Of a stretch of DNA of 64,000 bases, positions 2,681 to 63,902 are shown piece by piece. The first letter of the stretch is position 1. Each line of letters starts with the position of its first letter. Below the pieces are notes generated by a model that was not told where the DNA came from, did no database searches, and worked only from the letters and a program-made list of their open reading frames with translations. The position numbers and the translations under genes are program-made. Origin of the DNA: Calonectria ilicicola (Eukaryota; Ascomycota; Sordariomycetes; Hypocreales; Nectriaceae); assembly GCA_020809705.1 (NCBI GenBank), contig CP085827.1, positions 7,456,001 through 7,520,000 of the forward strand, written 5' to 3'.

Positions 2681-5139
2681 TTATGCGGCAAGGCGCACAG
2701 ATAATGAAGCGATGGTAGGGTGCTGAAGAAGATCCGCCACAGTGATGGCCATACCATATTCTCCAGCAGCAGCGGCCACCTTCATGGCGAGGATGGAGTT
2801 GCCACCAATGCGGAGGAAGTGGTCGTGGATGCCGATGCCAGATGCTTGGACACCAAGAACTGAGGCCCAAACGGCTTGAAGGCGCTGCTCTCGGTCGTTG
2901 GTTGGGCTGACCTTGTCATCTTCATTCACTCCCTGCAGAGCAGAGACCTTGCTTTCCAGGATTGTTGGAGCAAGTTGCCTCAGAATCTTGCGGTCGGTCT
3001 TTCCCGAGATGGTCAGGGGGATACGGTTGATGGGGATGAAAATTTCTGGCACCATGTAAATGGGTGCAGCTTTAGACAGAGCAGCTGTGACAGAGGCACG
3101 TGTGTTCTGAACAAAAGAGATGGCGGCCTCATCGAGGGCCACAGCCTGGTTAGCAGTGGCTTTGTCACCCCTGCCAGCAGAAGGAGCAACAAATGCAGCC
3201 AGTGTCTTGCGGGCCTCGGGGCCAATCTCAACGACCTCTGCAACCACGTCAACAGAGGGGAGGGCCTGGCGCAGATGGTGCTCAACCTCACCAAGCTCAA
3301 TTCGCTGTCCACGAAGCTTGGACTGTGTGTCCTTGCGGCCGTGCAGACTGATGGAGCCATCGGCGTTGTAGTAGCCAAGATCGCCGGTGAGGTAGAGACG
3401 TCCGTACTCCTGGCTGGCAAGCATCTGCTGTCGCCACGTAGGGGGAGCAACAAATCTAGGCTTGCCCTGCTGCTGACCGATGTAACCGAGAGCAACACCA
3501 TAGCTCTCAACCATGACCTCACCAACGGCACCGAAGGGGAGTAGAGTGTTGTGGTTGTCAGGGTGGACGATCCACATACGAGCTCCAGTGGTGGGGCCGA
3601 TGTTGCAAGGGTTGCTGTCCATGTGCAGGGGTTCCGTGGCCGTGTCCCAAAGGCTAGACTCAGTCATGCCCCACGTGTTAATGAGGTTGACCTTGTCACA
3701 AAGGCTCTGAAGGGTGTCTCTGTCCATGGGCTCACCTCCCAGCATCAGGTACTTGAGAGTGGGGGCGTGCTCGGGTTTCAGTTGGCTAGCAACGGAAGGT
3801 GTGAGGAAGGCGTGGGTAGCCTCCAGAGCCTGAATTTCCTTGTTGAGATCATTCAATCTCCCGGCCTCCGAGGGAATGCAAACACAACCACCAGCATAGA
3901 GAGTGGCAAAGATCTCAGAAACACTAACGTCAAAGCTAGGGGAGACAAACTGAAGGCATCTTGTCTCCTCGTCCATGTGCATAGGACCAAGCAGGTCAAC
4001 TGCACCAGTGCAGATGGCAGCGTGGTCGTGCATGACACCCTTAGGTGTACCAGTGCTTCCCGAAGTGAAGAAGCAAGTGGCCAGGCCAGATGGGCGGTTT
4101 ACGGGAACGAACTTGCGGTTAGAGGGTTGCATGCAAATCTCCTGCATGTTCTTGATGCAGTAGACTGCAGGGTTGATCTTACGTCTGCTCTTTGGGGGAA
4201 GATTTGTGAAGTAGGCCTTGGCAGAAATTTGCATGAGAATGCTGTTGATGCGGGTAGGAGGCATCTTGGGGTCCATGGGCACATAAACACCACCAGCCTT
4301 CAGGATACCAATGAGAACAACAGTGTTCCAGAACGACTTCTCCATCACTGAGGGGATGAAGTCGCCCTCCCTTACACCCATGAGACGAAGGAAGTTGGCA
4401 ATCTTGTTTGAGTACTCATCGAGCTTCTGGTAGGTGAGGCTGCCATCCCAAGCGCAGACAGCAGAGGCAAATGGTCTGGACTTGGCGTGCGCCATGACTA
4501 CTTGGTGAAAAGCTTCATTTTGCTTAGTGAGGGCCTGCTTGTTGTATCGCTCATACGACTTGAGGTCGTTCCAGTTGATAAGGTTCAGCTCATTGACTCG
4601 GCGGCCAGCGTCGAGTGAGCCAGAGCAAAATCCTTGCCAGACGGTAGAAAAAGCGTTGAGGAGGGCACGAGCAGTTTCCCTGTTGCCGGGGTTGGGCTGA
4701 ACTACATGAGCCATGAAGTTGCCCAGGCCCTGGGTGAGTACCAAGATGTACTTGGTCTAGAAAATTGGTCAGCGCAAAGGGGATCTACGGTAGAGAGGAA
4801 GAAAAGACATACCTCATCGCTAACTTTGGGAATTGCTAATCCGGAGCGTGTGATGGCGATGTAGAAAGGATCTTCTGTCTTGGTCTGCTCCGACACGGCC
4901 GGAAGCCCCTTGGGGGCAAACAAGTCACCGAGAGTTGTGGTCTCGGCGAAGTCGACTAATCGGCGGCTGAGATCCCATCGTCCTTCACGCTCCTGAAGGC
5001 AGTGGAGTGTCCATCCGTTGGAGTTGAAGTAAAGTTGAACTACGCTCGCCCAAATAGCATGGCTAACGCGTTCAAGGTCGTCGAGTTTTCCATTAAGGAC
5101 AATTCTGTCCGTTTCGGCGTAATAGTCTAGCGAAGGCAT
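2681..5139 (-). CDS. Stand-alone A-T starter NRPS (NRPS9-type)
   Basis: Two exons (5139-4813 and 4756-2681; 56-bp GTATGT...CTAG intron) give 800 residues. The first ~170 residues resemble the C-terminal part of a condensation domain. A complete adenylation domain follows: A3 SGSTGTPKG near residue 337, A5 WGMTES near 465, an A8 with RGQRIELGEVE, and A10 ending SGKTDRK. It ends with a carrier domain whose core is GGNS rather than GGDS (pantetheine serine S763). There is no complete C, E, TE or R domain, so it can only activate and carry one acyl unit. I infer that it loads the first unit of the peptide and delivers it in trans to the large NRPS, as NRPS9 does for GABA or guanidinoacetate in fusaoctaxin synthesis. 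The start at 5139 was chosen because the longer frame to 5208 runs through an apparent intron acceptor. Substrate is unproven. Confidence 0.85.
4757..4812 (-). other. Intron of the starter NRPS
   Basis: GTATGT donor and CTAG acceptor on the minus strand, 56 bp. Removal joins VSDE to TKYI in frame and links the N-terminal remnant to the adenylation domain. Confidence 0.85.
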
Positions 5140-6904: not shown

Positions 6905-9900
6905 TCATTCACGACCAGCCTTCTGAATTGCCCAAAGTTCTCCGAAGCGGGTGCCCGCAGTCTGCACTAGGTCTGAGGGAGAGCCCGTTTCAACCACATG
7001 TCCAGCATCCATGACGACCACAGTGTCAAAGAAGTCCATCACCATGTCTAGACGATGAGACACCATGACAATCGTGTACTCAGAAAATTCTTCCTTGATG
7101 ATCTCCTGCATGATTCTGTCTGTGGCGTAATCGACGTTTGAACTGACCTCATCAAGTAACAGAATACCGCCAGTTCGCCCCCCACAGAGCCTATCCTTGA
7201 CTCTGCGACGCAAGATTGCTCGACCAAGACTGAAGAGTTGTTTTTGCCCAGCACTTAGGTCATCAGCATTCATACCAGAATCAATCGATCCAAGTTCATT
7301 CATAAATTCAGTTAGTTGAACCGCCTCCAATACAGCAAGACACTCTTCGTTGGTAGCGAGGTTAAACGGATCCAAGTTGTCTTTGACCGAACTTCCATCA
7401 GGAAGGAACACGGCATCCTGCGGAACCGCAATGAGGCGACGACGTAATGTTTCACGGTCAATGGTGTGTAGAGGAATGCCGTCCATTTCCATATTCTTAG
7501 AACATGATGGCAAGGGATCAAGTAGACGAAGGAGGAGAAGAATAAGTGAGGATTTGCCACTGTGCCATATTAGATGAGTTTAATTAACGAGGTGAATGTA
7601 AGAAGTAATTCCAACGTACCTGCCCGTTCTGCCGCACAGCGCAACTTTTTGGCCTGGTTTAATGGACATGGTTAGATCTCTCAAGGCGAGCTTGACCGGA
7701 GGCTCAGGACCGAGCGTGTCCTCGCTATTGTTGGTGACAGCACTATGACAGATTTAGTTAGCATATTTTCATAACCATCATTTGGAAGGAATTGTTGAGA
7801 GGGAACATACCCGTATGAGCCAGATACGTTATTAAGCACAATCGAACCGTGTTTTGGCCATTCTTCTGAGGGAGTCTGATCCTCGCCTTCCAATTTCTCG
7901 GGCTTGACTGTGTCTGAAAATGTCTGGATTCGGGAGACAGCACCAATAGATGTCTCCACTGATGTGTAGTGCTGGATGACAGTGGAAATCGTCTCTCCCC
8001 ACGTCATGAGCGTAAGCATAGAAGCACCAGCAAACCCTGAATTACCCTTCAGTTGGGTTGCCAGAGTTACAACAACGACAGCAAGGACCATAACGGTGAG
8101 ATGCATCATGAACGTCAACCAGTGCTGGATAGCAGCCAGGAGATATGCAGGACGCTGTGAGTAGTCAAGAAGTTCGTGATTGAGTGTAACTTCGTAAGGC
8201 ACCCAGTTGAAAGCACGAATAGTAGCGATACCTTTCATGGTATCCATGAAATGGGCACTAGGTCATTATTAGTGACATGAAAAGGAAATTTATCTAAGGT
8301 GAACTTACTATAAAGGACTCTTAGCTTCCAAATCCAATAATCGAAGTTGTCTAGAAGTTCGAAGGTAGAACTTCTGCACTGTATAAAGAATAAGAAGAAG
8401 CGGAGGATAAGTAATAGCCACAAAAGGTGATCCAGTAGCCACAACAGCGGCCATGGCGATAGAATCAGTACCCTGCGTCAATACATTAAGCAGAGCCATC
8501 GGCAGATCACCATCAATCAAGGTCATATCCTGCGAGAAGAGATTTGTGACGACACCAATATCTGTTGTAGTGAAGAACCGAAGAGGTGCATTGATGACGG
8601 TCGTAAGGGCCTGCTGATGAAGCGTAGTACCTGACTCGGTCGTCATCCAAATAATGACGCACACACAGCAAATAAAGATGCAAATAATCTGCAAGGATCG
8701 TGACAGGGCATATATTCCGAGATAAAACGTCTTAGTCTTCCCAAACGAGTCGGCCGCCCAGTATCTCATCCAAATTGTGGGGAAGTTGTGGCAAACAGCG
8801 AAAAGGATGGCCATCACCAAACTCAAAACAGCGGCTGCTATGCTCATAGTACGGAGGTAGTGCTTGTAAACTGTAGTGTCACCGTTTAATCGTGCCTGTG
8901 CTTCAAGTTCATTTTCCACAGTTGCTGCGCGTGCCTGCCTAGGACCTTGGGTTCGTCCCTTGGTCTCAGTAGGCGCTTGTTCCTCATGCTCCTGCTCTGT
9001 TTCGGAAACACCAAGGTTGGCGACATAATTGCCTTTCTGCATTAGATCGGCAAAGTTACCGTCCTCAATCAACGTTCCATCCTTTCCAAGAGCAATGATA
9101 TAGTCAGAAAGAGGAAGATACTGAACTGAGTGTGTGACAAGCACGACCGTGGCGCCGCGCTGACGAGCAAGGCCTTTGGGACCAAATACACGCCTAAAGA
9201 CCTCACCAGCTGTATCGTTATCCAAGCCACTCAAGATGTCGTCGATAATGAGGAAGTCGGAATCGAGATACATGGCTCGGGCAAGAGATACTCGCTGCTT
9301 TTGACCACCACTCAACATAATACCGTTGCTTCCAATCTTGGTCTCGTCGCCCTCGGCAAGAATTGAGAGATCCGTCCTCAACATGCAAGCGTCGATAACG
9401 TCTTCATATCTCCTATGATTGAATTGCGAGTGGCCGATAATGTTTTGTTTAATCGTGCCGTTAGACAAGAAGGGGGATTGTTCACAATAACCGATGGGCG
9501 TGTTGGCCGCGGGCATAATTATCTGTCCGTTCTTGAAAGGGACCTCGCCCAAAAAGGCTTTGCAAAGAGTTGACTTTCCGGAAGCAACAGGACCAACAAT
9601 CATGGTAACTTTTGATGAAGGAATCTTGACTGTGATGTTATGTAGAGTCATTCTCTCAACAGCCCAGCCAAAGCTGGCATCCCAAACGGTGATGCCTGGC
9701 CCGGATCGTTTCTGGAGTCTGGGCTTGAGCTTATCCATTTTAATTGTTTCCAGGAGTGCCTTCTCATCTACATCGAGCGGTACATCATGCAGACTTTCAC
9801 CGTCCGGGCCATGGCTGGGCTCTGGCTGGCTCGTCTCTCGGAAGTCTTCGCGAGGAGGAGCTTCCAAAAATTCTTGGATACGGCCAAAACAGGTAAAGCC

Positions 9901-11588
9901 AGCAACAATCTGAGGGACATATTGGAATAGTTGGCCCAAAGGAGAGGTCAAGAGAATGATGTAAGACATGGCCGTATACATTTTTGTTGTTGTCAAGCTT
10001 ACGCCAGTGAAGGCAAAAGTAACAACGGGTCCCATGGCATCAGGGATGAAAGCAGTCGTGGCGGCAAAGATCATGAGCCAGCGGAACTGGTTTCCAATTC
10101 GAATTTCCTCAACACGCATTTTTTGGATAAATTCACCAACAGGCGCAGTGATACCAGAGATTCGGAGCCCCTTCATGTTCGAGATGACGTTCGACGTGAG
10201 ACCAACACGCTTTTCAATCTGACTCATCCAGCGACTCTGGGTTTCTCCACTGTACATAGCGCAAAGCATTGTTACGAAGACAGAACCCAGAATGACAACG
10301 ATGGGCGACACGAAGGCAGTACCAACTTCATTCTTCAGTAGCCAACAACCAATGCCGACCTCAATCAAATTAGCCCAGAATTCGTGAAGGCCGTGGAATC
10401 CACGAATAATGCGCTCAATATCAGTACTCATAAGCGTCAGGGAGGCCGAATTACTGGCATCTGATATTTTAGCCTTGGCGGTCTTCTGGTAGATCACAGC
10501 AACTAGACAACCGCGAGCGCTGTACAAAGTCCTCTGATGATAATACCAGTAGAGACCATCTGATACGGCGATTCCTCCATATGCAAACGCAGCCGCTCCA
10601 ATAAGACCGTAACCCGTGTTGCGTACAAGAGGTGTATGGCTGAGCCATTCGAGGAGGGCGTGTAAAAACAGAGGCTGGCTATAGGTGAATGCAATTTTGA
10701 AAATTCGCGGCCCAACTGGGAGCAAAAGCTGAATGGCAAGAGTCTTGGCGGTTGCAGTTGCAAGACCAAACTTTTTTCCATTAGTCGGGCTTTTAGCGAG
10801 ATAGCCGAGGAGCCTCTTCTCCAACACACTACTCTGCATTCTTTGGTCGAGTGGAAAGAGATCGTCAATTGTCATGACACTGTTGAATCCCTGAATGAAA
10901 AGGTGGTTCAACCAGGCGTAAACTCCAAGGTTAAAGAAACCACTCGATTCTTCTGGGCTATGCTCAGTGCGATCCCACTTTAACCATTTATCCTTCTTCA
11001 TCGATTCAAGAATCAAGAGAACGAACTTCAAAGCCAAGGCTGACGTGAACAGGCGGACGTATTGATAGGATGCTGAAGAGTCGGCAACGAGCCAATTGGT
11101 TCTGGTTTGAACAACGTCTAGCATCAGCTGGAGCGCTAAGAATACACCGATCAATCCAGATGGTCGAGGGGCTCTAGAGTGTTCGACGTATGAGAGAATG
11201 AGCATGAGAACACTAGAGATGAAGCTAGTGGCGGCCGCAGCGAGGGCAAATCTATCGTATTCCTTGGAGGATTTGGTGACAATCACCATTGCGAGTTGAA
11301 GTGCTGCGATCAGCGCGATAAAGAACTATTTTCAGATTAGAGGGTATGCAGCATTTGGAGATTTGAGAAGCCTTATACCAATTTCGACCATTGGAGCAAG
11401 GCGCCAGTGACAAAGCGAACACGCCGAGCCAGCCATATTACGCGCAGAATTGCCACGAGACTAAAGATTCCAGCAGGCAAGATGGTCATAATAATGCGCT
11501 CGAATCGGAGCGTAAAATCAAAGTCACCACGACATCCTTTGACAGAGGGCCCAAATGAATGGTCATTGAGGCATGTTGAATTAGACAT
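6905..11588 (-). CDS. Full-length ABCC-type exporter
   Basis: Five exons (11588-11379, 11325-8309, 8257-7811, 7742-7620, 7559-6905) join without frame conflict into 1,483 residues. The layout is that of an ABCC (multidrug-resistance-protein-like) transporter: an N-terminal hydrophobic region, TMD1, NBD1, a charged linker, TMD2, NBD2. NBD1 has Walker A GPVASGKST (~646), signature LSGGQKQ (~740) and Walker B FLIIDD (~757). NBD2 has Walker A GRTGSGKSS spanning the exon 4/5 junction (~1266), the variant signature LSAGQKQ (~1365) and Walker B ILLLDE (~1396). All key nucleotide-binding residues are present, so it should be active at a membrane. Its position between the starter NRPS and the PLP enzyme suggests product export or self-protection. 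The start was chosen at the MSNSTCLND frame, typical of this fungal subfamily. Confidence 0.93.
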
Positions 11589-14521: not shown

Positions 14522-14788
14522 TGTTGTGAATACGTCGTAAGATGAAAATGCTTGCTTCCTTTGTGTGGCGGCCTATCGATCACGGCTTTATCCTTTGCAC
14601 AAACACGAGAGCGAGAAATGGCGCCTTTTTCCTGCACGTGAAGTGATTGATATGGCCCAGCCCAACCTCAGTACCGCAGGCACGTGCCTAATTAAGTTGC
14701 AACGATGCAAATCCTATTTGACCGCTCGGCTAGACTAATGCACTGTCACCCTGGGGACTTACATGCGTGCTTCCTTGGCTGGCGGTCT

Positions 14789-14801
14789 GGCTGACGTGGG
14801 G
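14789..14801 (+). promoter_or_regulatory. GGCTGACGTGGGG element, copy 1
   Basis: Exact 13-bp match, inverted, to 15267-15279 in the same divergent promoter. It contains a TGACGT bZIP-type core. It lies 268 bp from the PLP enzyme start. Confidence 0.45.
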
Positions 14802-15279: not shown

Positions 15280-15693
15280 GGGCGTAATAAGACAAGGCTA
15301 AGGCGCTAAACCCGCAGCCATGATCCCTGCTCCCAAACATTTAAACTTCCTGTCTTGACCTCTGCAACACGTGTTCGGTTTTCGGCGGCATCAGCGGCAG
15401 CTTTTTGAAAGCCGGAGTAACGGACTCGTTATTAAGATTCAGCTCCGTTGCGCACTTGTTGCAGCACGGCACATATCTGGGCTCGCTACGAACCGAAGTG
15501 CCCTGTGCTCTCATAGACTTTGGTGATAACCCAAGTCAACGTGTATTTAAACAGGGCTCCCATAGAGCCGATCTTGGTACCGAGAACCTGGATCCTCATT
15601 ACCGTCCGTGTACATCGGTTGACTTTAGGGCTTTCTAGCATCTTTCCGTTGTGGGCTAGCCATTTCTCGCATATTATTAAACCTGGAATCACC

Positions 15694-43000: not shown

Positions 43001-46000
43001 GTGGAAGAAGAAGACCCTACCCGTGTCCACTTTGAGAGTGTTGAGGGGCATGATCCCAGTGAATACAACATGACACTGAACATCCTTGACGGTGACAAAA
43101 CCATCGAACTGCACCTTGCTCATTGGACTGACGTTCTGTCCGATGAGCATGCTGCTGAAATAATCGACGCTACGATTAGAGCTCTGGACTTCATTGTTCA
43201 GGACCCTAGCCGTAACCTCCCAGTTGTCAACCTGCTCAGCGAAGAATCTCTTGACCGTATTTTGGGCTGGAATAGCAACTACGCGGATCCCATTCAATCC
43301 ACAATTCCCCAGCTCATTAATGCTCATTTCAGGGAGGCTCCTGAATCGCCTGCAATTGTTTCTTGGGATGGCGAGCTGACCTTTGGCGAATTGGATCGTC
43401 TCATTACTCGTATTGCATCCTACCTTCGCTCCATTGGCGTAGGTCCAGACGTCACTGTTCCCTTCTGTTTCCGCAAGAGTCTCTGGGCCCCTGTCGCTAT
43501 GATCGCAATCATGAGAGCTGGTGGTGCATTTGTACCATTGGATCCAGCACACCCACCTGAGCGTATTCGCATGATTGTGCAGCAGCTGCCTACACAGACA
43601 ATCGCACTTGCTTCCCCAGAGACTGCACACCTGCTTGAGCCCCTAATTTCCAAGGTCATTCCTCTCAATGCGGACTTCTGTGATCGTCTCCCCAACGCTC
43701 GATTCGTTCCATTTACTGCCACCCCAGACAACCTTGCATACATTCTATTCACATCTGGATCGACTGGTACACCCAAGGGTGCAGAGCTGCAGCACCGTGC
43801 AGTATGTACCAGTACCACTGCCCATGGCATGCGCATGGGTTTCAATAAGTATACTCGCGCTGCCCAATTTTCCTCGTATAGTTTCGATGCTTGTATTGTC
43901 GAAATATTCACTACCCTCATTTACGGAGGATGCGTCTGTATCTTGTCTGAAGCTGAGCGAATGAACGACCTGGCCGATGCCTTCAACCGCATGAAGGTCA
44001 ACTGGACATTCCTTACACCGGCTGTTGCCAGTACCGTTGATCCTTCCGAGGTACCAACCTTGCGTACATTCTCCGTTGGTGGTGATGCCATTCGACACGC
44101 CGTCATCAACAAGTGGAACAACGGCTCATGCCGTGTCATCCAGGCCTACGGACCCACTGAATGCTGTGTCTTCTGTCTTTCCGAAGATCGAACCGGTCGA
44201 CCTACGGCACCCGAGGTCCTTGGAAGTGCCATGGGCTGCACTGTGTGGGTTGTCGATCAACAAGATCCCAATATTCTGATGCCCATCGGTGCTGTCGGTG
44301 AACTTGTGGTTCAGGGGCCCATTCAATCCCGAGGGTATCTCAATGACCCCGAAAAGACTAAGAACACCTTCGTCAGAGGTCTTGCCTGGTTGCCTGAAGA
44401 GATCCAGGATGAGCCGGTGTACAAGACTGGTGATTTGGTGCGCTATAATGCTAACCACACCATCAGCTTCATTAGGCGTAAGGACACACAGGTCAAGGTT
44501 CGCGGCCAGCGTATTGAATTGGCTGAGATCGACTATCAGATCGCCAGTTCACACAACGATATCCAAGCTCATTATGTGATGCTCGGATCCGAAGGCCGAT
44601 TCAGTGGCAAGATTGTGGTTATCATTTCTTTCCGGGATCTTGGAGACCATCAAGATGGTAACCTCAAACTTCTGGACAGAAAGGATGAGCGTTCCAAGGC
44701 CCAGGAAAAGCTCGCTCAGATTCAGAACTTTATTGCAGACAAGATTCCATCTTACATGCATCCCCACGCCATGATTGTTGTCAACACTCTTCCCACCAAT
44801 GTGTCCTGCAAGGTTGATGCTCGCCAAGTTAAGGCTTGGGTTCATAACCTCGATGATGAGGCCTACAGCCAAGTCATGAACCTTGATGCTACAGATGCTG
44901 CTATGGAGCCCACAGATGAAGCTGAGAAGGTTATCCAATCCGCAATCAGCGAAACAATCAACCTGCCCCTACAACAGGTTGCCATGAACCGATCCTTCAT
45001 TAGTCTGGGTGGCGACTCTATCACTGCCATGCAAGTCATGGCCTTGTGCCGTCGCAACGGTTTCTCTCTGCCGGTGCAGGATATTCTCAAGTCGGCTAGC
45101 ATCCGCGCTATGAGCACTAAGGCGAAGAAGCTCGGGTTTGCCAATTCAGCCCAGGATAACGTTGAGAAGGAGAATGTTCTCTTCCCCTTGTCGCCAGCTC
45201 AAAATATTCACTTCCTGCAGTGCCCTGATGGCGAGAACCACTACAATCAGAGTATGTTAGTCAAGTTCCGACAAAAGGTCTCCAGCTCGGCAATTGAAGA
45301 CGGCATCCAAGAGCTTGTGTCTCGACACTCCATGCTGCGTGCCAGATTCGTGAAGGATACAAAGACTGGACAGTGGAGTCAAAAGATCAGCTCACAGGTT
45401 AAGGAGAGTTTTACCTTTGACACTTTCAAGGCCGAATCTTGGGACGCAGCCCGACCTAAGCTCGCCGTTGCCGAGGAGTCTCTCGACATCACACGAGGCC
45501 CCCTGATTGCTGTCAGACAAGTTGATATCGCGTCGACTTCCGCTCTTTTCCTTGTGGCTCATCATCTTGTCATCGATCTCGTATCTTGGAGAACCCTTCT
45601 TCGAGAACTCGAGCAACTCATTGATGGCGAAGCTTTGCCTGAGGATTCCTTCTCAGCTTCCTTCCAGCAATGGACCAACAGCCTTCACAACTATGCTGCG
45701 TCACATGCGCAGTCTGCCCTCGCCCTGCCCTTCGAGGTTCCCACTGTAGACCTGAACTTCTGGGGTGTAAACGAATTCCGCAACGACTTCAACCATTTGG
45801 TCCAGGGCAGCTTCACCCTGAGCACTGAGACAACAAGTGTCCTACTCCGTGAAGCCAACAGTGTGTTGAATGCCGAGGTCTTCGATGTCCTTCTGGCCAT
45901 CGCTGCCCATACCTTTAATACTGTATTCCCTGAACGCCAGGCTCCTGTCATCAGCACCGAAAGTCACGGTCGAGAGCATCCCCTCGGCCGAGAAGCCAAT

Positions 46001-49000
46001 GTTTCCGTCCACGAAACAGTTGGTTGGTTTACCGGTATCGCTCCCTTTGTCCTTCAAGAGAACAATGGAACCTTCCTTGACTCCCTCATCCGTACCAAGG
46101 ACATACGCCGTGCTATCGCCGGCTCAGGAGTGCCATATTTCACAGCCCAAATGCTCTCCAAAGAGACTGAGTCTCAAAGGACCAAAATGTTCCCACTGGA
46201 AATCCTCTTCAATTACTTTGGTAGATTCCAGCAATTCGAAAAGGCTGAAGGTCTCTTTGAGCCTCTTCCCTCTTCCCTTGGACCTCTAGATGTCAACCTC
46301 GACGCCGAGAGGCTGGCTTTGATTGATCTCGCCGGAGTCATTGAGAAGGACCAACTGACACTCTCTTGGACCTTTAATGAGCGCATCAAGCACCATAACA
46401 AGCTCTCTCGATGGCTCGCTCTCTATGAGCAAACACTCACTGATGTTGCTTCTGATCTTCAGAAGGCCACTACGCAACTCACTCGCAGTGATGTACCGTT
46501 GCTGCCACTGACGCACGCTGAGCTCGGCCAACTGAATGGGGATCTCGCCAAACTCTCTCGTAAGGGTGTTCGTGCTATTGAGGACGTCTATCCATTGTCG
46601 CCTATGCAACGCGGTATTCTTCTAAGTCAGTCTAAGGACTCGGGCTTCTATGACGTGCACGCCGTTTGGGATATCACCAGCCCTGACCACACTGTCGATG
46701 TGCTTCGCTTGCACCAGTCATGGGATCGCGTTGTTCAGCGTCATCCCATGCTCCGAACCGTCTTTTATCGCAGTGTTCGTGAGGATAGTCTATTAGACCA
46801 AGTCGTCCTCAAATCATATCACCCGGCTATCAGCCACTTCACTTATGATGGTGACGAGGAAGACGAAGAGCATGCTCTTCAACAGCTTTGGGAAGCTGCT
46901 GCTGGCCCTTATGCACCCAACTCCCCTAACCATCGCCTCGCCTTGTGCTCTAAACCAGGCGGTGACAAAGTTTTCGCCCATTTGCAGGTTAACCACGCCC
47001 TCATTGACGCTTCTTCCGTAGCTGTCATCCTACGCGACTGGAAACGTGCTTATGGCGGCACTCTCCCAGAGGAGGTCGGCCCCGCTTACGCCGCCTACAT
47101 TGGCCACATCCAAAAGACAACTCCCCAAGCCTCCATTCGCTTCTGGTCCAATCTTTTGCGGGGTGTCACCACCTGCAAGCTGCCCAAACTCACAGATGTC
47201 GGCGGCATTGGCGAGAAGCAACTCATGAAGCTTGACGTCAACATCCCAGCACCCGATGGCATCCGCAGCATTTCTAAGAAGTTGGGTGTCTCCCTCGCTA
47301 ACATTGTCCAACTTGCCTGGGGTCTGGTCCTCCGGTCTTACACCGGCGAGCGGGAGGTCAACTTTGGCTACATCACCTCCGGCCGAGATGTCGAGATTGA
47401 CGGTATTCAGGATGCCGTTGGTCCTTTTATTAACATTTTGGTTTCGCGACTTTCATTTGACCAGGACAAGACTCTTGCCTCCATGCTCCAGAACTTGTTC
47501 ACCACCTATCTTGACAGCCTTCCTCACCAGTTTGCTTCTTTGGCTGATATCAAACATGCTCTGCATATGGGTAACGAGCAACTTTTCAACACTGCCATGT
47601 CCTACCAAAAGGTGTCGGCATCTGCTGCAGCACAAGAATCTTCGCTGACCTTCACTACGATCCGTGGTAATGATCCTTCAGAGTATGATCTTACGCTGAA
47701 CGTCATCGAAACCGATGACACAATTGACGTCAATCTGGTCTATTGGAACACTTCAGTTTCCGAGGGTCAAATTAACAACCTATTCGCTTCGTTCGTCCGG
47801 TCACTGAAGGTTATTGAGACCCACGTTGACAAGCCAATCGATTCCATTGATCTCCTACCTTCCGAACATGCGTCCCAATTGCTGGAGTGGAATAAATCCA
47901 TGCCTGCTGATAGCACTTCCAGACTCCACGACCTCTGGTATGATGTGGTTCGTCGTCAACCGGAGGCCCCCGCGGTGTGCGGCTGGGACAAGACCTTCAC
48001 TTACGCTGAGCTGGACCGTGCCTCCACTCGCCTTGCCTGCCATCTGATCAAACTGGGTGTCAAGCCTGAGACCTTTGTGGGCGTACTGTTCGAGAAGAGC
48101 GCTTGGATCACAGTTGCATGGCTAGCCATTCTCAAAGCCGGTGCCGCTTTCATGCTGATGGATCCCGAAGCACCCAAGGACCGCCTTCAAACATTGCTTG
48201 CGGGAGCAAAGGCATCCGTGATCGTGTGTTCCACATCTGCCAAGTCAACGGTCGACGCCTTGAGCAAGACAGCCGTTGTCGTCAACGAACAAACAATTTC
48301 CACCATGCGACCTACAAGCAGCTTGCCCGACACTCCTGCTACAAGCCCCGCCTATGTCATCTTCACCTCTGGTACAACTGGCACCCCTAAGGGTGCTGTG
48401 ATCGAGCACCACTCCATCAGCGTCAGTCTTGTTGCACAGGCCAAGGCCTTCTTCATCACAGCCGAGTCTCGCTGCCTGCAATTTGCGTCGTACACATTCG
48501 ACGCCAGCATTACTGAAATGGCTGTTCCCTTGCTCGCTGGTGGCTGTGTTTGCATTCCTCACCAGCAGGACATCACTGGCGACCTTCCTCGAGCCATCAC
48601 GGAAATGAATGTTAACTGGGCCGTTTTGACACCATCCTTCGTCCAAACAATCAACCCCGACTCCGTGCCTTCAATTAAGACGCTGGGTTTGGGTGGTGAG
48701 CCCCTCACACAGCGTGACATGGAGGTTTGGGCTCCTAGAGTCAACTTGCTGAACATTTACGGCCCTAGTGAATGCAGTATCGTTGCATCTTGCAAGCAAG
48801 ACCTCACCGCAACTTCTGAGCCTTCAAACATTGGTTACCCTGTCGGATGTTCCCTTTGGGTCACTGATGCAGATGATCCCAGCCGCCTTGTTCCTATTGG
48901 ATGTATCGGTGAGATGTTAATCGAGGGCCCAACCCTCGCCCGTCACTACCTCAACGAGCCTGAAAAGACTGAAGCCGCTTTCGTCAGCGGCCTATCCTGG

Positions 49001-51112
49001 GCCTCTCGCATGGGACGCGATCTGAAGACGCGCTTTTACCGAACTGGCGATTTGGTCCGACTCAACTCAGACGGCACCGTTGCTATTGTAGGACGCAAGG
49101 ATACTCAAGTCAAGATTCACGGTCAGCGAATGGAGTTGGGTGAAATTGAATACCAGCTTTCTCGTATCACCGATATCCACCACTCTATGGTAATGGCTCC
49201 TAAGAAGGGTCCCTTGAACAACCGCCTGGTTGCAATTCTTTCTCTCAAGGACTACTCTGCCTCCATTACCTCTACTCCTGACACCAAACTTGAACTTCTG
49301 AACCCCAATCTCAGATCTCAAGCCAGCGAAGCTGTTATCCAGTTCCGAGACACTATTTCCAAGTTCTTGCCCAAATATATGATTCCTTCCACTTGGGTCG
49401 TTGTCCAGGCCATGCCTGCCATGCTTTCAGGCAAGCTTCACCGCCCAGCCACCAAGGCCTGGGTAGAGAACATGGACAACGAGACGTACAGGGCCATTGG
49501 AGGGTCAGACGCTATCGCAGCTAGACTTGGCGCCAGCGAGCGCATTGCCATGCAGATTAGTGAAAAGGTCAATAGTCTTCTCGAGGCTACAGAAGGTGGC
49601 AGCCAGGAGGAAGACATCGTTGGCAAGAACATTATCCCGGTTCAATATGGACTTGACTCCATTTCTGCCATCTCATTGTCCAACTGGATCAGAAAGACAT
49701 TCGATGTCACAATTCCTTTGTCTGTCTACCTTTCTTCTGAGACTAGCATTCGAACTTTGGCTGGCCTTGTGGGAGAGACAGCACCCGATGTTGCGCAAGA
49801 TGAGGAGGAGCCCAAGGGCAAGGAACCCGCAACTACTACTGGCCTAGATCTCCGATCAGAGATTCAAAAGTATGAGAGCCAGCTCACAAAGCTTTTCTTG
49901 CCAGATATGAAGAGTTCCCTACAACGCCGTTCCCCAACATCAGTTCTATTGACGGGTGCAACCGGATTCCTTGGTAGCCAAATTCTCAAGGAACTACTCC
50001 AGAGATCTCAGGTCACAAGAGTTGTCTGTTTAGTCCGTGCAGAAAGCGATAGCCACGCCAAGGAACGAGTAATTGAGTCTGCAGAGAAGGGTCAATGGTG
50101 GAGGCCGAGGTTTGATCACCGCCTTGAAGCTTGGAGTGGAGACTTGGCCCAACCCCGCCTTGGACTCGACGAAGCCAAGTGGAAGCGAATCGGCTCAGGT
50201 GAAAAGGATGGTATTGATGCCATCATCCACAACGGCGCTTTGGTGCACTGGCACATCAGTTACAACGAGAGCCGTGACGCAAACGTCAACAGTACCGTGG
50301 ATCTCCTGTCAGCCTGGGCCACGGCTCCTCGCCCTGTGAAGTTCATGTTCGTCACTGGTGGCTACATGAGAGGCGCTAACGAGACTGATGATGAAACACT
50401 TGAGATTCTTAAGGAAGCAGATGGTTACTCTCAGTCCAAGTTTGTCTCTGAGATGCTCATCAGGCGCCAGGGAGAGCGATCCCGTCGCACTCGACCCCAG
50501 ATGCCAATTCCAACCATTGTGGGACCCGGTCTTATTGTTGGTGATGCTGTTCACGGTGTCTCCAATCTGGATGATTTCCTGTGGCGTGTAGTTGCCTCAG
50601 CTGTTCGTATCAATGGCTACAATGCGGAGGAGGGAGAAGACCCCAACAACTGGCTCATTGTGGCTGGCAGTGACCAGATCGCCAGTGCCACAGTGGACAC
50701 CTGCCTTGAAGTTACTGCCAGGGAGACCAAGATGCTCCGATTCGTGGATGGAGTTCCCGTAAAGGACTTCTGGCAGATGATGAAGAATCAGTGCGGATTC
50801 AGACTTCGACCCATGTCTACTAAGTTGTGGATGAAGCGCCTGGAGGAGGATATGGATCGAGAGGGCCCCAGCCATCCTCTATTCCCTGTTTTCGAGTTCC
50901 TAAACCTGAAGGGTGGTGCTCTGGGAGCTCAGAGGTACACTGATGGCAAACCTCTCTTCCCTCAAAAGGATACTCTACTCCGCCTTCAGCGAAGTGTTGA
51001 ATATCTAAAGAGCATTGGATTCCTCGGAAAGCAGCAAGCGAAGAAGGGTGCTGGTCCTCTCTCAGGATTCAAGCGCACCGGTCTCAAGTCCACTAGAACC
51101 GCTTTCTTCTAA
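25541..51112 (+). CDS. Giant NRPS with terminal reductase (NRPS5-type)
   Basis: One uninterrupted frame of 8,523 residues (roughly 0.93 MDa). Domains by core motifs: remnant C and degenerate A1 (A3 at ~405), no carrier; C1 (YPCAPVQEG ~854; H987 in SHAIIDG); A2 (~1449), T2 (S1870), dead E2 (~1920-2320); C2 (H2489), A3 (~2968), T3 (S3395), E3 (H3580/H3581); C3, A4 (~4527), T4 (S4952), E4 (~H5137); C4, A5 (~6071), T5 (S6493), E5 (~H6674); C5 (H7152, NHALIDA), A6 (~7609), T6 (S8040, GLDSIS), R (GATGFLGS ~8137; Y8296/K8300). With a starter from the stand-alone A-T protein it should build a linear hexapeptide with D-residues at positions 3-5 and reductive release as aldehyde or alcohol. This mirrors F. 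graminearum NRPS5 (fusaoctaxins) but with fewer modules. Substrates are not assigned. Confidence 0.95.
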   Translation: MSSRSSTLNAGAESAVPTDFPSVAADASVGRLDTHWSLDFTPDDESPVQGLVSALTPAQLFLAWGMVVKAHAGTDDTVVFGANVSDDTAEAAEAQEPAKPFAIDLDSEKAIGSHLDVIQQQIDSWTTPESSSPVLHTDDAETSSAFRSAFYYSSSTPLTEQHEILQNDDGVVNGTTPLVVLCSGEGSNLSAEMAVNSNIVGQHVLPYLAAQLSRAFTQLRSADNDDPLKSISLVGPQDLDKARMLAGRMPSSESSCIHELITDQAETTPDAEASISWDTRLTYNELDQYSDALALKLIGLGLGAGQIVATCLDKSGWVAVTYLAVLKAGGAFAPLNPTLPVDQLALSLRTLNASIILTTPEYQTKLNGFARTVLGISKLDESLTISDRRPEVDVQPHQPAFIVSTSGSTGAAKHMVVTHEAFSSSIEANCDGLDLSEDTRMLQFSSYDHHTSISEIFLTLTQGGCICTPSEKERLSDIRAACQRMSPNTAFLTPATADLFEPDELVDVESLNLSGEPMTETNVRKWASRSLLINAYAPAEASGFPFMTVPLSDDAVSSNLGWPHGCSAWLMDPEDSSRLAPIGAIGELLLEGPTIAQSYLGNSDASRSAFIPRPASLPEPVFGAQDASERRCFLTGDLVRFNLADGTLQFVRRKDPRYILNKVIHTEQLIRKNLDSVRQVAIVAPERGACANRLVALVSFEGEKKAGRLGFLTSERRLKYVGQPNAVCDELRRHMPSHAVPSVWLAVTELPITSSGKIDRKTLVTWVNGINEHSIKQRIDNQLKPEIDASEWLASSTSLGEVESSNAQETSSQSTVEDVADRFTLLELDGDKVGKLEAALKKIGVTGGTRAVEDCYPCAPVQEGIMVSQVKAPGTYNILVVWDMIAPPNKRITQESLKAAWTRVVKHHASLRTVFIDSVRDGALFDQVILKPTDVDVVDVPWIQEPIESDDLLELTSADWNTGELQHRLGFSKSADGRVQCQLLISHAIIDGLSVPNLRRSLEGALNGTLSDTPEPHHHQNYISQIQKASKDAAREFWRTYMDGLDGCKLPQLIDGAHPPKIPKVSMIRHEVPNVKQLRVFCQNNGITLFNLIQAAWALTLRAYTLSDEVCFAFMATDRHLLGDQADDAVGFFINLMLCRASLQGSTPVVEVLKKLQHGFYASLQHQHLPLAEIAHQHNIPAADLFNTTMTFYALDQDDETEVSNIRLRQDLLQDVAEYDVVVRIHESDEANMKAELAYWNTALSDSQAENVFGAFLAAIASIPSATTVDDVNLLDNRMSSQIQEWNQEQPELFDVCLHEMIHERLQEAPNAPAVDAHDGQFTYAEFDRVASQLGKHLTELGVGPEVAVGICFEKSAWAAVAVIAILKAGGFFVPIDPAFPPERQQLISDNIGIKVLLYSDATSHVSLNGVRHHIVVDQKLFDQLPAPSAAWSSNRVKSHNAAYTLFTSGSTGTPKGVVVEHRNISSSVMAHGITFGFNCSSRVLHFSAYTFDGAVCEILTTLSHGGCICIPSEHDRLSNLAGAITKLQCNWVHFTPTTMSTLRPQDVSSLKTIVAMGEALNWATKDAWSPHVRLFNGYGPTETSIYAVVCDTTSPDVGPMVIGNTIGSRGWIVRPSNHKQLMPIGAVGELVLDGPMVSRKYFNDPERTKQSYLEHPLPPYMGSTPFRAYRSGDLVRYNADGSITYVGRNDNQVKVRGQRTELGEVEQKIKTGKVKVAQCVVLLPKSGPCAGRVIATVSFNDEYPVDNSVSTGDMKLLDVDKITDVLDTLREDVSQKLPVFMVPKIWFPVQSFPQTTSFKVDRRAVTRWIEQLSQDAIDKVIHVSAAQGAVQIAEGPVETVIAEAWGKALDVPITQIPTDRSFFSLGGDSILAMNIVTQCRGNGVDLSVRDILRGTTIQELAGRISGTEPSGSSKDHSASPQSELTPVESLALGEGLDLPADRLQNSRSVQVRLNQSTSSTALKTAAQNLVARHPTLRTILAKEDGKWFRHARLDFPKAVALTVHDGSAAVAAKLSVSRSRLDLSTGPLLAVDYFPSTQTLALTASQLTLDLPSWNIVVKDLDALLSGSTLPAVPSVNEPAVSIKNPHTIVEPDLEYWELEETEEAYLPREMNYELRLDPDVTEKLLQITKSANTTPSDLIVAAATQSFSESFTDRNMPTIYMVGSEQGLEQTTAGYFETAFPIHVDTDALVTATPEFVAQVTKARVGITSTGIPRVFPDQPPELLVSFLENQQYSFKGKALEQIDDNLDNAKAATLASLIPACLSITANIQDDGILSVVVAHSWDLGRQKKIRKWVRQLESTLGAVIRATASEAVPLSDTDFPFIKVENNDAWQQVHKAISSKIGPVSRHTVEDLYPCSPVQQGILLSQAKSMSSYQIDIVWKVRDNRSRVSLANIERAWEAVVRQHPAMRTIFVDGLGAGEAFLAVVLRDPSTIVRKESVSGDREDIEIFLQSQPPLKVADHQPPHMLTIASTSVPGEALVHLRASHAITDGISLDVIQQDLARAYSDERIATLSIDVVQQQPVYNAFRDYIGYIREQDNQTSLDFWKKHLANVSPCHFPKLTVPDVETANVKRLFKAELGKAHITALNKLCQEHNVTISSLAQITWALILRAYTSNPYVCFGYMTSGRDAPVDGIDSGVGVFINMLVSSLTLEDDMTLKQVLIEASAAFADSLEHQYCPLVKIQSALQLGTQPLFNTAMSCYRELEPEQMTSATDVTVDPVHIDDVSEYSIGAKVSYTRSKIEMTLTYWTGALCPEAAEVVGKAWVETLKSLPTILDEKVANIALFDSASETLIREWNHHMAGTVDLCMHDVLSKQASEVPNKVALNSTAGNLTYSELDDYSTRLSHHLVKLGVVVESIVPLIFEKSVWTVVAMMAVWKAGAAFVALDPGHPIDRQTMILSDLNSPVAVLSAEQSARPAIAELIATTGVRQWILTPESVLALPKKSTKACTTVTPDNAAYVIFTSGSTGKPKGVVVHHRAISTSTKEHGEAFGFHSEVRIMHFASYAFDASFTEFITPLVFQGSVFIPSETERIEDLPGFINRNEITWIILTPAVARMMNPEDVPKVTTLICGGDAMGDLTPRKWSNKVRFIQGYGPTEATIVVSISNRQNKEVRPAMIGHMIASAAWIVNPRNHDILMPVGAAGELLIEGPVLARGYRNDPEKTSAAFIENPLWSKNYPRHSPSRRLYKTGDLVRLNMDGSLDFIQRKDTQIKIRGQRVEAGEIENTIDAANESIQHVFVTFLKEGLLKSRLISVISVQGLGPAVASGEGPQLLSGQDQVRAKEILNELTEYLSAKLPRHMVPQVWAVVEGSSVPLNSSGKMDRRRITTWLEKADEALAQEILSLDEEEAVSDDNMNDLEGALRSIWALVLNIDRQKIGLDRSFFSLGGDSISAMQLVSHCRAQRIPINVQDVFRCKTVAALATVAQENGAGADYAADQSDFVERVDEYFSLSPVQKFHFEMNPEGVNHFNQSWLVQIPSSRSVSPDTVRDALHQLVDRHSMLRARFRRSDGQWKQRITNDIEGSLAFNEHLRVAPRAVDGIMAQTQTSLDIQAGPVMAADLIQLPDRQLLFMVAHHLVIDLVSWRVVLEELETILTGGFSTLAEVKPFSFQQWVELLAAQAEKWTLTDVLPYNLPAPQMDYWGSGASLSNTFGSTRDLNFTLDEAITKSLLGPANDALQTDPQDLFLAAAFQSFSEVFIDRPLPTIFTEGHGREADVVGQIDLSRTVSWFTSLSPVALPSGAQSDLIETLKRTKDARRAIPNKGVPYFASRYMTSQGAKQFSKHSQMEILFNYQGQFQQSERSDVLLQAVTDTKYVEGDIDPTVPRLALVDIAAAINEGRATVSLTVPKSFNIDTMDRVSHWLRRFQLLLVDLVKQTTDLEPSFSLSDLPLVKDITYSDLAEIEALCEEHIGESGPRAIEEIFPCSPMQQGILMSQSRKSELYDVRIAMQITTPGVEVDQLKDAWSQLIRRQPMLRTVFIPNLRGTGSFDQVILRDAEPIIREVEASESDLEAEEQWIRCETSAAPVNGFEYGQLPHEFVIYTAGSRLYMMIRLSHALVDGACLPLIIQELRQAYAQRLPAGSARSYRELIAFTQKQSQNKILEYWCDYLRNIIPSRLPPLLDGVIHRGPSELKVRELVVPNVAGLKQICAEHGFTLSNLVQAAWALVLRAYTGEDSVSFGYLASGRDAPIDGVQQILGPFINMLICRVEFTDEKTSVLQLLQNMREDILTGIGNQYVSLAEVQHALEMGSEPLFNSTISFQRNDPVTDGANGTDGDDGLALAPVDARDPTEYDISLNVVDVDDLEISFSYWTSKVSDKQATHVIRALLTALAGFTEDINQPATRLNLVSPETRAEMDEWNLLAMPVPVPACVHKLIEMQTQVVHSQKAVEAWDRDFTYRELNQAANAFAHHIQELGNLKPDGFVVTCFEKSAWTVVAQLAILKAGAAFAAVDPTHPVERIAGIVSDLGHPSLLLTSSKYEDRLRELFPHVVLVNEESFKKLGPRKDAPKTDVQPENTAYSIFTSGSTGRPKGINIEHQSISTAAAVHANRLRLGRSSRVLQFAAYTFDLSVGDIFYTLVNGGCICVPSDRQRVEDLAGAINAFKVNWMFLTPTLADMLEPDSVPTLKTLLLGGEAPTAENVRRWSERVHLILAYGPAETTIWSNCNTNVNPTTDPANFGPAFGSAIWVADMENPEVLLPVGAMGELLVEGPLVARGYIADPAKTAAAFIPRPQWLPDGYDRHMYRSGDIVRYNPDGSCSFVRRRDNQVKVRGQRVELNEVEVHVTRANAGLQHAIVLLPKEGACKGRLSVVISYTSPDEREPFRSIVPIRNNKASQEKIAGIRNYLMEKLPGYMVPKVWIAVEEIPFTVNGKIDRRQVTGWVHALTDNDLAGIVGQTAEAGEGSSAALAKLSNMEKQLAHVWSQVLNLPLASLPIDQSFTSLGGDSISAMQVVSRGRERGVIVTVHNILRCQSLPDLASQCRFKSLAAGEGAALNTTVDYTKDFPLLPIQRMFFEQMPHGLSHYNQQFTVRLNKNFGAKDIERALAAVVQAHPMLRARFYQQQDKNGQWTQKVTPDIKGSFHFETNVFNTLLEAQDKMNETQASLDIRQGPLFAVDLIDLPEYQVLFLAAHHLVIDLVSWRIILEDLENLLSGQQPSPEIIPVPAWSNELVQQATKYSIDKVLPFPVPVADFAFWAMDGMNNVFRDTTTIELRLDGPSTKALLGSANTAFGTDPVDLMAAALFYSFGEVFSDRALPALYTESHGRAAWDDAIDLSRSVGWFTTIFPLVLQKKSGSELDLVRAVRQVKDMRRRIPEKGLPYFITRYLTEEGRSAFKDHTNMEILFNYLGQFQQLQQADNIIEEIAEGGVETEDAPPTTPRLALLDVMTAVQGAELVLSFTYNKKMQHRERIHTWLEKFHAALQRLSSDLPDMPSSFTSGDFPLLGLDDDALTGFAETVHTKVGAWGPSVIENVFPASPIQQGMLVSQSKDTTSYLVKGVWKITPPAGKSFQPDQLEKAWLNLVKYHAILRTVFCESGRSDGVFAQVILRDEAFASTIIKTFGYEGHDPIDFLQSAPSKLRSDKPPAMMEMLTTSRGGDAYVCVEISHTLIDGTSFGVLMDDLREAYHDNLRGSGPAYGDYISYIYQQPFAKSLDHWKEALADTQACHVPTLSPHGTARKLNKVARMVPNADRMRKLCRTHDFSVTNILQVAWSLVLRAFTGMNHVCFGYLNSGRDVPVDGIEKAVGPFINMLICQAEFGVGENAKSALDMVKEMRRSYIDSLPHQHCSLGDIQHALGFGNKALFNTAMSLQKISEVEEEDPTRVHFESVEGHDPSEYNMTLNILDGDKTIELHLAHWTDVLSDEHAAEIIDATIRALDFIVQDPSRNLPVVNLLSEESLDRILGWNSNYADPIQSTIPQLINAHFREAPESPAIVSWDGELTFGELDRLITRIASYLRSIGVGPDVTVPFCFRKSLWAPVAMIAIMRAGGAFVPLDPAHPPERIRMIVQQLPTQTIALASPETAHLLEPLISKVIPLNADFCDRLPNARFVPFTATPDNLAYILFTSGSTGTPKGAELQHRAVCTSTTAHGMRMGFNKYTRAAQFSSYSFDACIVEIFTTLIYGGCVCILSEAERMNDLADAFNRMKVNWTFLTPAVASTVDPSEVPTLRTFSVGGDAIRHAVINKWNNGSCRVIQAYGPTECCVFCLSEDRTGRPTAPEVLGSAMGCTVWVVDQQDPNILMPIGAVGELVVQGPIQSRGYLNDPEKTKNTFVRGLAWLPEEIQDEPVYKTGDLVRYNANHTISFIRRKDTQVKVRGQRIELAEIDYQIASSHNDIQAHYVMLGSEGRFSGKIVVIISFRDLGDHQDGNLKLLDRKDERSKAQEKLAQIQNFIADKIPSYMHPHAMIVVNTLPTNVSCKVDARQVKAWVHNLDDEAYSQVMNLDATDAAMEPTDEAEKVIQSAISETINLPLQQVAMNRSFISLGGDSITAMQVMALCRRNGFSLPVQDILKSASIRAMSTKAKKLGFANSAQDNVEKENVLFPLSPAQNIHFLQCPDGENHYNQSMLVKFRQKVSSSAIEDGIQELVSRHSMLRARFVKDTKTGQWSQKISSQVKESFTFDTFKAESWDAARPKLAVAEESLDITRGPLIAVRQVDIASTSALFLVAHHLVIDLVSWRTLLRELEQLIDGEALPEDSFSASFQQWTNSLHNYAASHAQSALALPFEVPTVDLNFWGVNEFRNDFNHLVQGSFTLSTETTSVLLREANSVLNAEVFDVLLAIAAHTFNTVFPERQAPVISTESHGREHPLGREANVSVHETVGWFTGIAPFVLQENNGTFLDSLIRTKDIRRAIAGSGVPYFTAQMLSKETESQRTKMFPLEILFNYFGRFQQFEKAEGLFEPLPSSLGPLDVNLDAERLALIDLAGVIEKDQLTLSWTFNERIKHHNKLSRWLALYEQTLTDVASDLQKATTQLTRSDVPLLPLTHAELGQLNGDLAKLSRKGVRAIEDVYPLSPMQRGILLSQSKDSGFYDVHAVWDITSPDHTVDVLRLHQSWDRVVQRHPMLRTVFYRSVREDSLLDQVVLKSYHPAISHFTYDGDEEDEEHALQQLWEAAAGPYAPNSPNHRLALCSKPGGDKVFAHLQVNHALIDASSVAVILRDWKRAYGGTLPEEVGPAYAAYIGHIQKTTPQASIRFWSNLLRGVTTCKLPKLTDVGGIGEKQLMKLDVNIPAPDGIRSISKKLGVSLANIVQLAWGLVLRSYTGEREVNFGYITSGRDVEIDGIQDAVGPFINILVSRLSFDQDKTLASMLQNLFTTYLDSLPHQFASLADIKHALHMGNEQLFNTAMSYQKVSASAAAQESSLTFTTIRGNDPSEYDLTLNVIETDDTIDVNLVYWNTSVSEGQINNLFASFVRSLKVIETHVDKPIDSIDLLPSEHASQLLEWNKSMPADSTSRLHDLWYDVVRRQPEAPAVCGWDKTFTYAELDRASTRLACHLIKLGVKPETFVGVLFEKSAWITVAWLAILKAGAAFMLMDPEAPKDRLQTLLAGAKASVIVCSTSAKSTVDALSKTAVVVNEQTISTMRPTSSLPDTPATSPAYVIFTSGTTGTPKGAVIEHHSISVSLVAQAKAFFITAESRCLQFASYTFDASITEMAVPLLAGGCVCIPHQQDITGDLPRAITEMNVNWAVLTPSFVQTINPDSVPSIKTLGLGGEPLTQRDMEVWAPRVNLLNIYGPSECSIVASCKQDLTATSEPSNIGYPVGCSLWVTDADDPSRLVPIGCIGEMLIEGPTLARHYLNEPEKTEAAFVSGLSWASRMGRDLKTRFYRTGDLVRLNSDGTVAIVGRKDTQVKIHGQRMELGEIEYQLSRITDIHHSMVMAPKKGPLNNRLVAILSLKDYSASITSTPDTKLELLNPNLRSQASEAVIQFRDTISKFLPKYMIPSTWVVVQAMPAMLSGKLHRPATKAWVENMDNETYRAIGGSDAIAARLGASERIAMQISEKVNSLLEATEGGSQEEDIVGKNIIPVQYGLDSISAISLSNWIRKTFDVTIPLSVYLSSETSIRTLAGLVGETAPDVAQDEEEPKGKEPATTTGLDLRSEIQKYESQLTKLFLPDMKSSLQRRSPTSVLLTGATGFLGSQILKELLQRSQVTRVVCLVRAESDSHAKERVIESAEKGQWWRPRFDHRLEAWSGDLAQPRLGLDEAKWKRIGSGEKDGIDAIIHNGALVHWHISYNESRDANVNSTVDLLSAWATAPRPVKFMFVTGGYMRGANETDDETLEILKEADGYSQSKFVSEMLIRRQGERSRRTRPQMPIPTIVGPGLIVGDAVHGVSNLDDFLWRVVASAVRINGYNAEEGEDPNNWLIVAGSDQIASATVDTCLEVTARETKMLRFVDGVPVKDFWQMMKNQCGFRLRPMSTKLWMKRLEEDMDREGPSHPLFPVFEFLNLKGGALGAQRYTDGKPLFPQKDTLLRLQRSVEYLKSIGFLGKQQAKKGAGPLSGFKRTGLKSTRTAFF
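31310..32510 (+). other. Inactive epimerisation domain of module 2
   Basis: An E-type domain follows T2, but the HHLVIDLVSW motif seen in the other three E domains reads SQLTLDLPSW, losing both histidines. The later EGHGRE motif reads VGSEQGLE. Epimerisation of residue 2 is therefore not expected. Confidence 0.85.
35880..46500 (+). repeat. Three successive C-A-T-E-type repeat units
   Basis: E3, C3-A4-T4-E4 and C4-A5-T5-E5 share the same order and nearly identical motifs: HHLVIDLVSW in all three E domains and GGDSI[ST]AM in all three carriers. The pattern suggests growth by internal module duplication. Nucleotide-level similarity was not computed. Confidence 0.6.
49925..51109 (+). other. Terminal thioester reductase (R) domain
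   Basis: NAD(P)-binding LLTGATGFLGSQ near residue 8137, followed by the SDR-type YSQSK pair Y8296/K8300 after a TGG turn. It resembles the reductase release domains of peptaibol and fusaoctaxin synthetases. It would release the chain as aldehyde, with possible further reduction to alcohol. No TE or terminal condensation domain exists, so cyclisation is not expected. Confidence 0.9.
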
Positions 51113-63896: not shown

Positions 63897-63902
63897 AGGG
63901 CT

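Follow-up and report, generated by a model that had tools for sequence, protein, structure and literature searches.

Peptide engineering has yet to explain how a nonribosomal peptide synthetase (NRPS) gains modules without breakage, and the locus described here poses the question in concrete form: is an assembly line with five working extenders, lying in a cluster of the type that makes the octapeptide fusaoctaxin, a shortened relative of the octapeptide line, or does it keep the form from which that line grew? The window, the whole stretch of 64,000 nucleotides that was analysed, lies at the end of contig C3 (C3:7456001-7520000) of a genome of 69.9 Mb in 12 contigs, which was searched as well. 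The reading that we favor, with a probability of about 0.72, is that the window holds a complete cluster of the fg3_54 type, in a nectriaceous fungus near Thelonectria, which keeps the pre-expansion five-extender architecture of NRPS5 and is predicted to make a hexapeptide.

In Fusarium graminearum the fg3_54 cluster includes NRPS5, NRPS9, Fgm1-5, and Fgm9. NRPS9 has the structure A-T and NRPS5 the structure A2a-C2-A2b-T2 followed by five C-A-T-E modules and C-A-T-R, and assembly by the two proteins is described as colinear in the available text of PMC6389888 and PMC6563249. Residues 4-7 of fusaoctaxin are Ser-Val-Ser-Leu (PMC6389888), and fusaoctaxin B includes guanidinoacetate, made by Fgm1, Fgm2, and Fgm3, in place of GABA (PMC10967133). 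PMC6389888 and PMC6563249 disagree on how much fusaoctaxin matters as a virulence factor in wheat infection. Starships of Gaeumannomyces carry an nrps5-like gene but lack the other cluster genes (PMC12134995).

The window includes the same eight kinds of genes as fg3_54. All of those listed by the initial annotation were found where it had placed them, within nucleotides 2681-51112:

2681-5274, minus strand: stand-alone A-T starter NRPS, counterpart of NRPS9 (frames 2681-4756 and 4702-5274)
6905-12026, minus strand: ABC exporter in several frames, counterpart of Fgm5 (ABC_tran, ABC_membrane, TMD0_ABC)
13105-14572, minus strand: class V PLP enzyme, counterpart of Fgm3 (Aminotran_5; frames 13105-13761, 13668-14150, and 14264-14572)
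15517-16815, plus strand: NodB-fold amidohydrolase, open frame, counterpart of Fgm2 (Polysacc_deac_1)
17621-19235, plus strand: cytochrome P450, counterpart of Fgm1 (p450; frames 17621-18844 and 18903-19235)
20112-21172, plus strand: regulator with a basic region and ankyrin repeats, counterpart of Fgm4 (ankyrin families)
22783-23865, plus strand: short-chain dehydrogenase (SDR), counterpart of Fgm9 (adh_short; 54% to the homologue on contig C7)
25478-51112, plus strand: NRPS, counterpart of NRPS5, a single open frame of 8544 codons with five working extenders and R

Judged by gene content, this region is the complete counterpart of the eight-gene fusaoctaxin cluster, and the earlier assignment to the fg3_54 type holds; an octapeptide cluster on contig C7, described below, has six of the eight kinds. 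The starter (Pfam AMP-binding, 1.5e-59; PP-binding, 1.2e-13) has its best match in Ilyonectria robusta (61%) and matches Fusarium NPS9 at 52-56%; its identity to 14 family members is 52-61%, and the next match is at 39%. Identities to the homologues on contig C7 are 51-65% over the pieces of the ABC exporter, 68-76% for the amidohydrolase, and 58-59% for the P450. The basic part of the regulator has no second match anywhere in the genome, and an Rfam search of the window gave 0 matches. Contig C1 includes a further PLP enzyme piece (C1:7917507-7917935), which shares 55% identity with that of the cluster and could serve another guanidino pathway. The cluster is adjoined by a retroelement, with RNase H and reverse transcriptase frames in a strongly A/T-skewed stretch at window positions 51610-54441, and fungal rhodopsin-domain frames and a PIF1-like helicase frame (1173 codons) lie at 57901-59035 and 60381-63902. 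The same contig includes an NRPS frame of 15376 codons, the size of a peptaibol synthetase, at C3:6974589-7018118, as well as frames of 8790 and 7586 codons.

Local profiles built from the window NRPS's own domains, together with motif checks, gave the order A0(dead)-C-A-T-E(dead)-[C-A-T-E]x3-C-A-T-R, with the following coordinates:

26303-27853, plus strand: A0, degenerate adenylation domain without a carrier
28082-32188, plus strand: module 1 (C1 28082-29341, A1 29420-30982, T1 31040-31258, dead Ex 31382-32188)
32591-37186, plus strand: module 2 (C2 32591-33880, A2 33962-35560, T2 35624-35833, E2 35879-37186)
37295-41857, plus strand: module 3 (C3 37295-38584, A3 38660-40219, T3 40292-40504, E3 40553-41857)
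41948-46474, plus strand: module 4 (C4 41948-43219, A4 43295-44857, T4 44900-45127, E4 45155-46474)
46562-51109, plus strand: module 5 (C5 46562-47839, A5 47915-49480, T5 49505-49777, terminal reductase R 49865-51109)

A frame that stays open over 8544 codons and has its domains in order goes far beyond what chance would produce, and the profiles and motifs confirm the dead start, the five working C-A-T sets, and the terminal reductase that had been noticed initially. No carrier domain follows A0; its pocket, HTSFNSAGF, does not begin with the usual Asp, and its A3 and A5 motifs are altered. The HHxxxD histidines are absent from Ex (SQLTLDLPSW), and E2, E3, and E4 each carry HHLVIDLVSW. Outside A0 and Ex every catalytic motif looked for is present, including xHxxxD in all five C domains, LGGDSI in T1-T4, GLDSIS in T5, and TGATGFLG and YSQSK in R. 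The fg3_54 system likewise has a separate A-T starter and a terminal R, and its first NRPS module includes an additional degenerate A as well as a truncated E; it differs in having seven extenders versus five in the window, NRPS5 having the window layout plus two C-A-T-E modules. The degenerate A0 and inactive first-module E of the fg3_54 type are present in the window, and the octapeptide traits, seven extenders and a duplicated block with the module pairs 3/5 and 4/6, are missing. In domain trees every domain of the window NRPS clusters with the corresponding one of the octapeptide lines, and the starter and NRPS domains share common ancestry with the NRPS9/NRPS5 family.

Although catalytically dead, A0 and Ex are retained in all five family lines compared below (window, C3, C7, P0121, and P0123). 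Between the window and the C3 line, dN/dS is 0.04-0.13 in 10 of 14 domains, with dS of 1.7-2.8, near saturation, and not estimable in the other four; the values are 0.09 for A0 and 0.13 for Ex. These two domains, too, look constrained, and A0 may therefore play a structural role, for example receiving the starter. A structural or docking role is possible for both, and some of the constraint may be older than the loss of C1-A1-T1.

The A-T protein would load GABA or guanidinoacetate, the latter formed from arginine via the P450, the PLP lyase, and the amidohydrolase, a guanidinoacetate pathway reportedly described by Tang et al. in 2021. The five-module NRPS would add five residues and the R domain would release a linear, C-terminally reduced hexapeptide, most likely an alcohol, that the ABC protein would export under the control exerted by the ankyrin regulator on the cluster. 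The six residues follow from colinearity (A-T starter plus five extenders), and the predicted configuration is L at position 2, D at 3, 4, and 5, and L at 6; the D/L pattern given by the initial annotation for positions 2-5 is supported. A described hexapeptide of this form is absent from the literature searched (subscription papers lay outside its scope), as the initial annotation had supposed. Adenylation pockets were read from the alignment at nine positions, presumably corresponding to gramicidin synthetase numbering, the tenth (Lys) being assumed. The starter pocket DVSFMGTLW is like that of the C7 starter (DVTFMGTLW) at 8 of 9 positions, and a GABA or guanidinoacetyl start of the predicted peptide is well supported. 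The extender pockets are DGCHVMGIY (A1), DATIIGGIV (A2), DLGFLGAIW (A3), DAVFSGAVF (A4), and DATVGGIIV (A5). Identities to the C7 octapeptide counterparts are 5/9 for A1, 4/9 for A2, and 3/9 for A5, with A3 at 6/9 to each of octapeptide modules 3 and 5 and A4 at 5/9 to each of 4 and 6. Since the extender pockets match in only 3-6 of 9 positions, the product would not simply be a shorter fusaoctaxin; a Ser-like residue at position 4 is plausible. When compared to the C3 line, the pockets agree at 9/9 positions for A3, 7/9 for A2, and 4/9 for both A4 and A5, and the low values for the last two despite 79% and 74% domain identity suggest a substrate change between the two lines. In addition to the substrates, product length, alcohol end, export, and regulation that we infer for the window cluster, its kinship to fusaoctaxin suggests a role on plants.

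A genome search with the R domain detected, among the 32 matches listed, three with at least 56% identity, the next being at 39%. These correspond to the window itself, C3:5933208-5934446 (84%), and C7:5668308-5669516 (56%), and define two further lines:

C7:5617832-5669516: octapeptide cluster, with the NRPS at 5634571-5669516 (A0-C-A-T-Ex-[C-A-T-E]x5-C-A-T-R)
C3:5933208-5955562, minus strand: NRPS of the C3 line, with A0 joined straight to Ex and C1-A1-T1 missing in frame

The C7 NRPS starts and ends as that of the window and differs by having five C-A-T-E modules (seven extenders) versus three. Counterparts of the A-T, ABC, NodB, P450, and SDR genes accompany it, their pieces being 51-76% identical to those of the window except for the A-T N-terminal piece (31%). 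Its NodB copy is disrupted by a frame change and a stop codon within the frame, the P450 frame is open wherever it aligns, and neither a PLP nor an ankyrin homologue was found within C7:5600001-5679356. Close by, C7:5600001-5610000 has a G+C content of 15%, as expected of heavily mutated repeats. The domains of the C3 line are 74-87% identical to those of the window (Ex, 61%). Within C3:5910001-5980000, searches at 1e-6 found no ABC, PLP, NodB, P450, or ankyrin homologue, the A-T query matched NRPS domains alone so that no starter was found, and matches to an SDR (26%) and to PIF1 (30%) look unrelated. The C3 line may begin synthesis at module 2 or make use of the starter in the window. The window NRPS frame has no interruptions; the C7 frames are broken at four places in C domains, resembling introns, and the C3 line is open save one short intron-like interruption in C4, at the same C-domain place, a pattern of intron loss or gain. 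Another NRPS, at C7:5076238-5096529, was rejected as a family member on weaker domain scores and the lack of an R match. The window and C7 clusters are not recent paralogues: their starters are 53% identical and a clade uniting them was rejected (p-AU 5e-5). The three sizes in one genome could be a native six-residue line of ancestral form, a four-module derivative that lost one C-A-T unit, and a Fusarium-acquired eight-residue line; the window cluster would then make up for the lyase and regulator that this last line lacks and for its disrupted amidohydrolase, with regulator, starter precursor, and starter protein shared across loci. We consider this reading doubtful; if true, one cluster would control a graded peptide family.

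To place the five-extender form in time, domain trees were built from five family lines: the window, the C3 and C7 lines, P0123 (Fusarium sp. DS 682, partial), and P0121 (metagenome, partial). A search for NRPS relatives gave 257 matches, and 2 of the 120 listed, P0123 and P0121, have at least 51% identity; none of the 120 listed is longer than 7994 amino acids, full-length NRPS5 is probably missing from them, and the C7 line stands in for F. graminearum NRPS5 in every module comparison. Octapeptide modules 3 and 5 both correspond to the one module 3 of the window, the C and A domains of octapeptide modules 4 and 6 to its one C4/A4, and window E4 is the counterpart of octapeptide E6. In the A tree (27 rows) octapeptide A3 groups with A5 (100/100) and A4 with A6 (100/99), window A3 and A4 falling outside; the C tree (24 rows) pairs C3 with C5 (81/98) and C4 with C6 (92/93), support being below 95 for both; and the E tree (20 rows) pairs E3 with E5 (99/98), E2 with E4 (100/99), and octapeptide E6 with window E4 (100/100). 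These relationships point to a tandem duplication of E2-C3-A3-T3-E3-C4-A4-T4. P0121 (5945 amino acids), whose A0-C-A-T-Ex-[C-A-T-E]x2-C corresponds to the window start and ends after C4, branches before the duplication and, compared with the window, is nearer to the octapeptide line. A concatenated-block tree (8 rows, with an outgroup formed by module 2 and the last module) united both octapeptide blocks and DS 682 in one clade (100/100), block 2 being on a long branch. Grouping the window and C3 line with block 1 and DS 682 was rejected (logL -89, p-AU 1.5e-5), as was grouping them with block 2 (logL -92, p-AU 1.4e-5) or with block 1, DS 682, and P0121 (logL -32, p-AU 0.004). Trees that kept octapeptide E4 with E6 were rejected (1.7e-46), as were those that kept it with the entire window-E4 group (0.003); the groups tested were picked after the single-domain trees were seen, a practice against which the test itself cautions.

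The junction itself is located inside a carrier domain. Comparison of C7 A2..C4 with A4..C6 in 60-residue steps gave identities of 17-68% before T2/T4, 42-80% from there until T4/T6, and 13-52% after. Upstream of SLGGDS, C7 T4 shares 17/31 positions with T6, 13/32 with window T4, and 9/32 with T2; over the 40 residues after it, T2 and window T2 share 19/40 each, T5 18/40, T6 15/40, and window T4 14/40, a weak hint of a mosaic after the motif. The most economical account has T2 and T4 of a five-extender ancestor undergoing an unequal crossover, which would have copied E2-C3-A3-T3-E3-C4-A4-T4 (about 9.4 kb) in tandem and given the seven-extender fusaoctaxin line. Such a crossover predicts a repeated residue pair, and Ser-Val followed by Ser-Leu in fusaoctaxin agrees. 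The evidence suggests that the five-extender form is older and that the seven-extender line grew from it by duplicating two modules; the initial description of the window line as shortened was probably the wrong way round. The available text of PMC6389888 ('duplicat' 0 times) and PMC2823734 (no NPS5) does not mention a duplicated block, and neither duplication nor transfer of the cluster is described in the literature searched, within the same scope as above.

Conversely, the window could descend from a seven-extender ancestor by loss of two modules, gene conversion having made 3/5 and 4/6 look like recent twins. Module loss does occur in the family, as the C3 line lacks C1-A1-T1 in frame, but the window, the C3 line, and P0121 all fall outside the group of the two octapeptide copies, and conversion would have to extend over about 9 kb while sparing E6. 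Together with the constraint tests this disfavors a recent shortening of a fusaoctaxin cluster, and we regard secondary shortening as quite improbable.

Even with an ancestral architecture, the end product might not have six residues if a module is skipped or reused or if the peptide is cut by the exporter. The five-module NRPS4 of Fusarium produces the hexapeptide fusahexin by using a module twice (PMC10967133), a tetrapeptide was obtained from NRPS5 alone, and deletion of Fgm5 in F. graminearum abolished the cleaved penta- and tripeptide (PMC6563249). Colinearity of such lines can thus fail, by analogy with NRPS4 and NRPS5 alone; nevertheless, NRPS5/NRPS9 are colinear, and the window line is arranged in the same way and keeps its motifs intact, which makes a departure from six residues unlikely. 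The cluster could also be silent or non-functional, as that of F. graminearum is nearly silent in culture (PMC6389888, PMC6563249) and reverse transcriptase and RNase H frames adjoin that of the window. In F. graminearum, deletion of kmt6, which encodes a repressive histone methyltransferase, gave a permissive background (PMC6563249). The open 8544-codon frame, the checked catalytic motifs in place in five modules, and the low dN/dS versus the C3 line, read with its near-saturated dS, speak against this, and we give it very little weight. The preferred reading remains a complete cluster with the pre-expansion line; the sequence itself shows which genes are there, how the domains are ordered and which of them are dead, where they fall in the trees, and the mixed T4.

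The history of the C7 cluster appears to be different. The housekeeping protein TSR1, encoded on contig C8, is 88% identical to that of Thelonectria olida, 84-86% to those of Neonectria, Ilyonectria, and Dactylonectria, and 78-85% to those of the Fusarium species among the matches listed (F. tjaetaba, 83%; F. pseudograminearum, 80%), and its tree groups it with Thelonectria (95/95). A Fusarium setting for this DNA, which the C7 starter had suggested, is not supported. On the other hand, the C7 starter is 90% identical to those of F. beomiforme and F. oxysporum, 84% to that of F. pseudograminearum, and 70-75% to those of F. piperis, F. euwallaceae, and F. duplospermum, and 10 of 11 C7 NRPS domains are 86-91% identical to those of Fusarium sp. 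DS 682 (E1, 70%). A group of ten Fusarium and three unnamed rows without C7 was rejected (p-AU 1.5e-56), and in the starter family tree the window starter branches off deepest (100/99). The nesting of the C7 cluster inside Fusarium, while TSR1 groups with Thelonectria, suggests horizontal transfer; the cluster was likely acquired from a Fusarium. A single housekeeping protein underlies this conclusion, and the affinity could also reflect an error of assembly.

One genome thus harbors unduplicated and duplicated lines of the same family, with the junction between the copies located inside a carrier domain, and the repeated Ser-X pattern of the known product fits the duplicated block. These results suggest that outside Fusarium there is a shorter and older relative of a peptide linked to wheat infection, and that a cluster of the fusaoctaxin type has crossed between genera.
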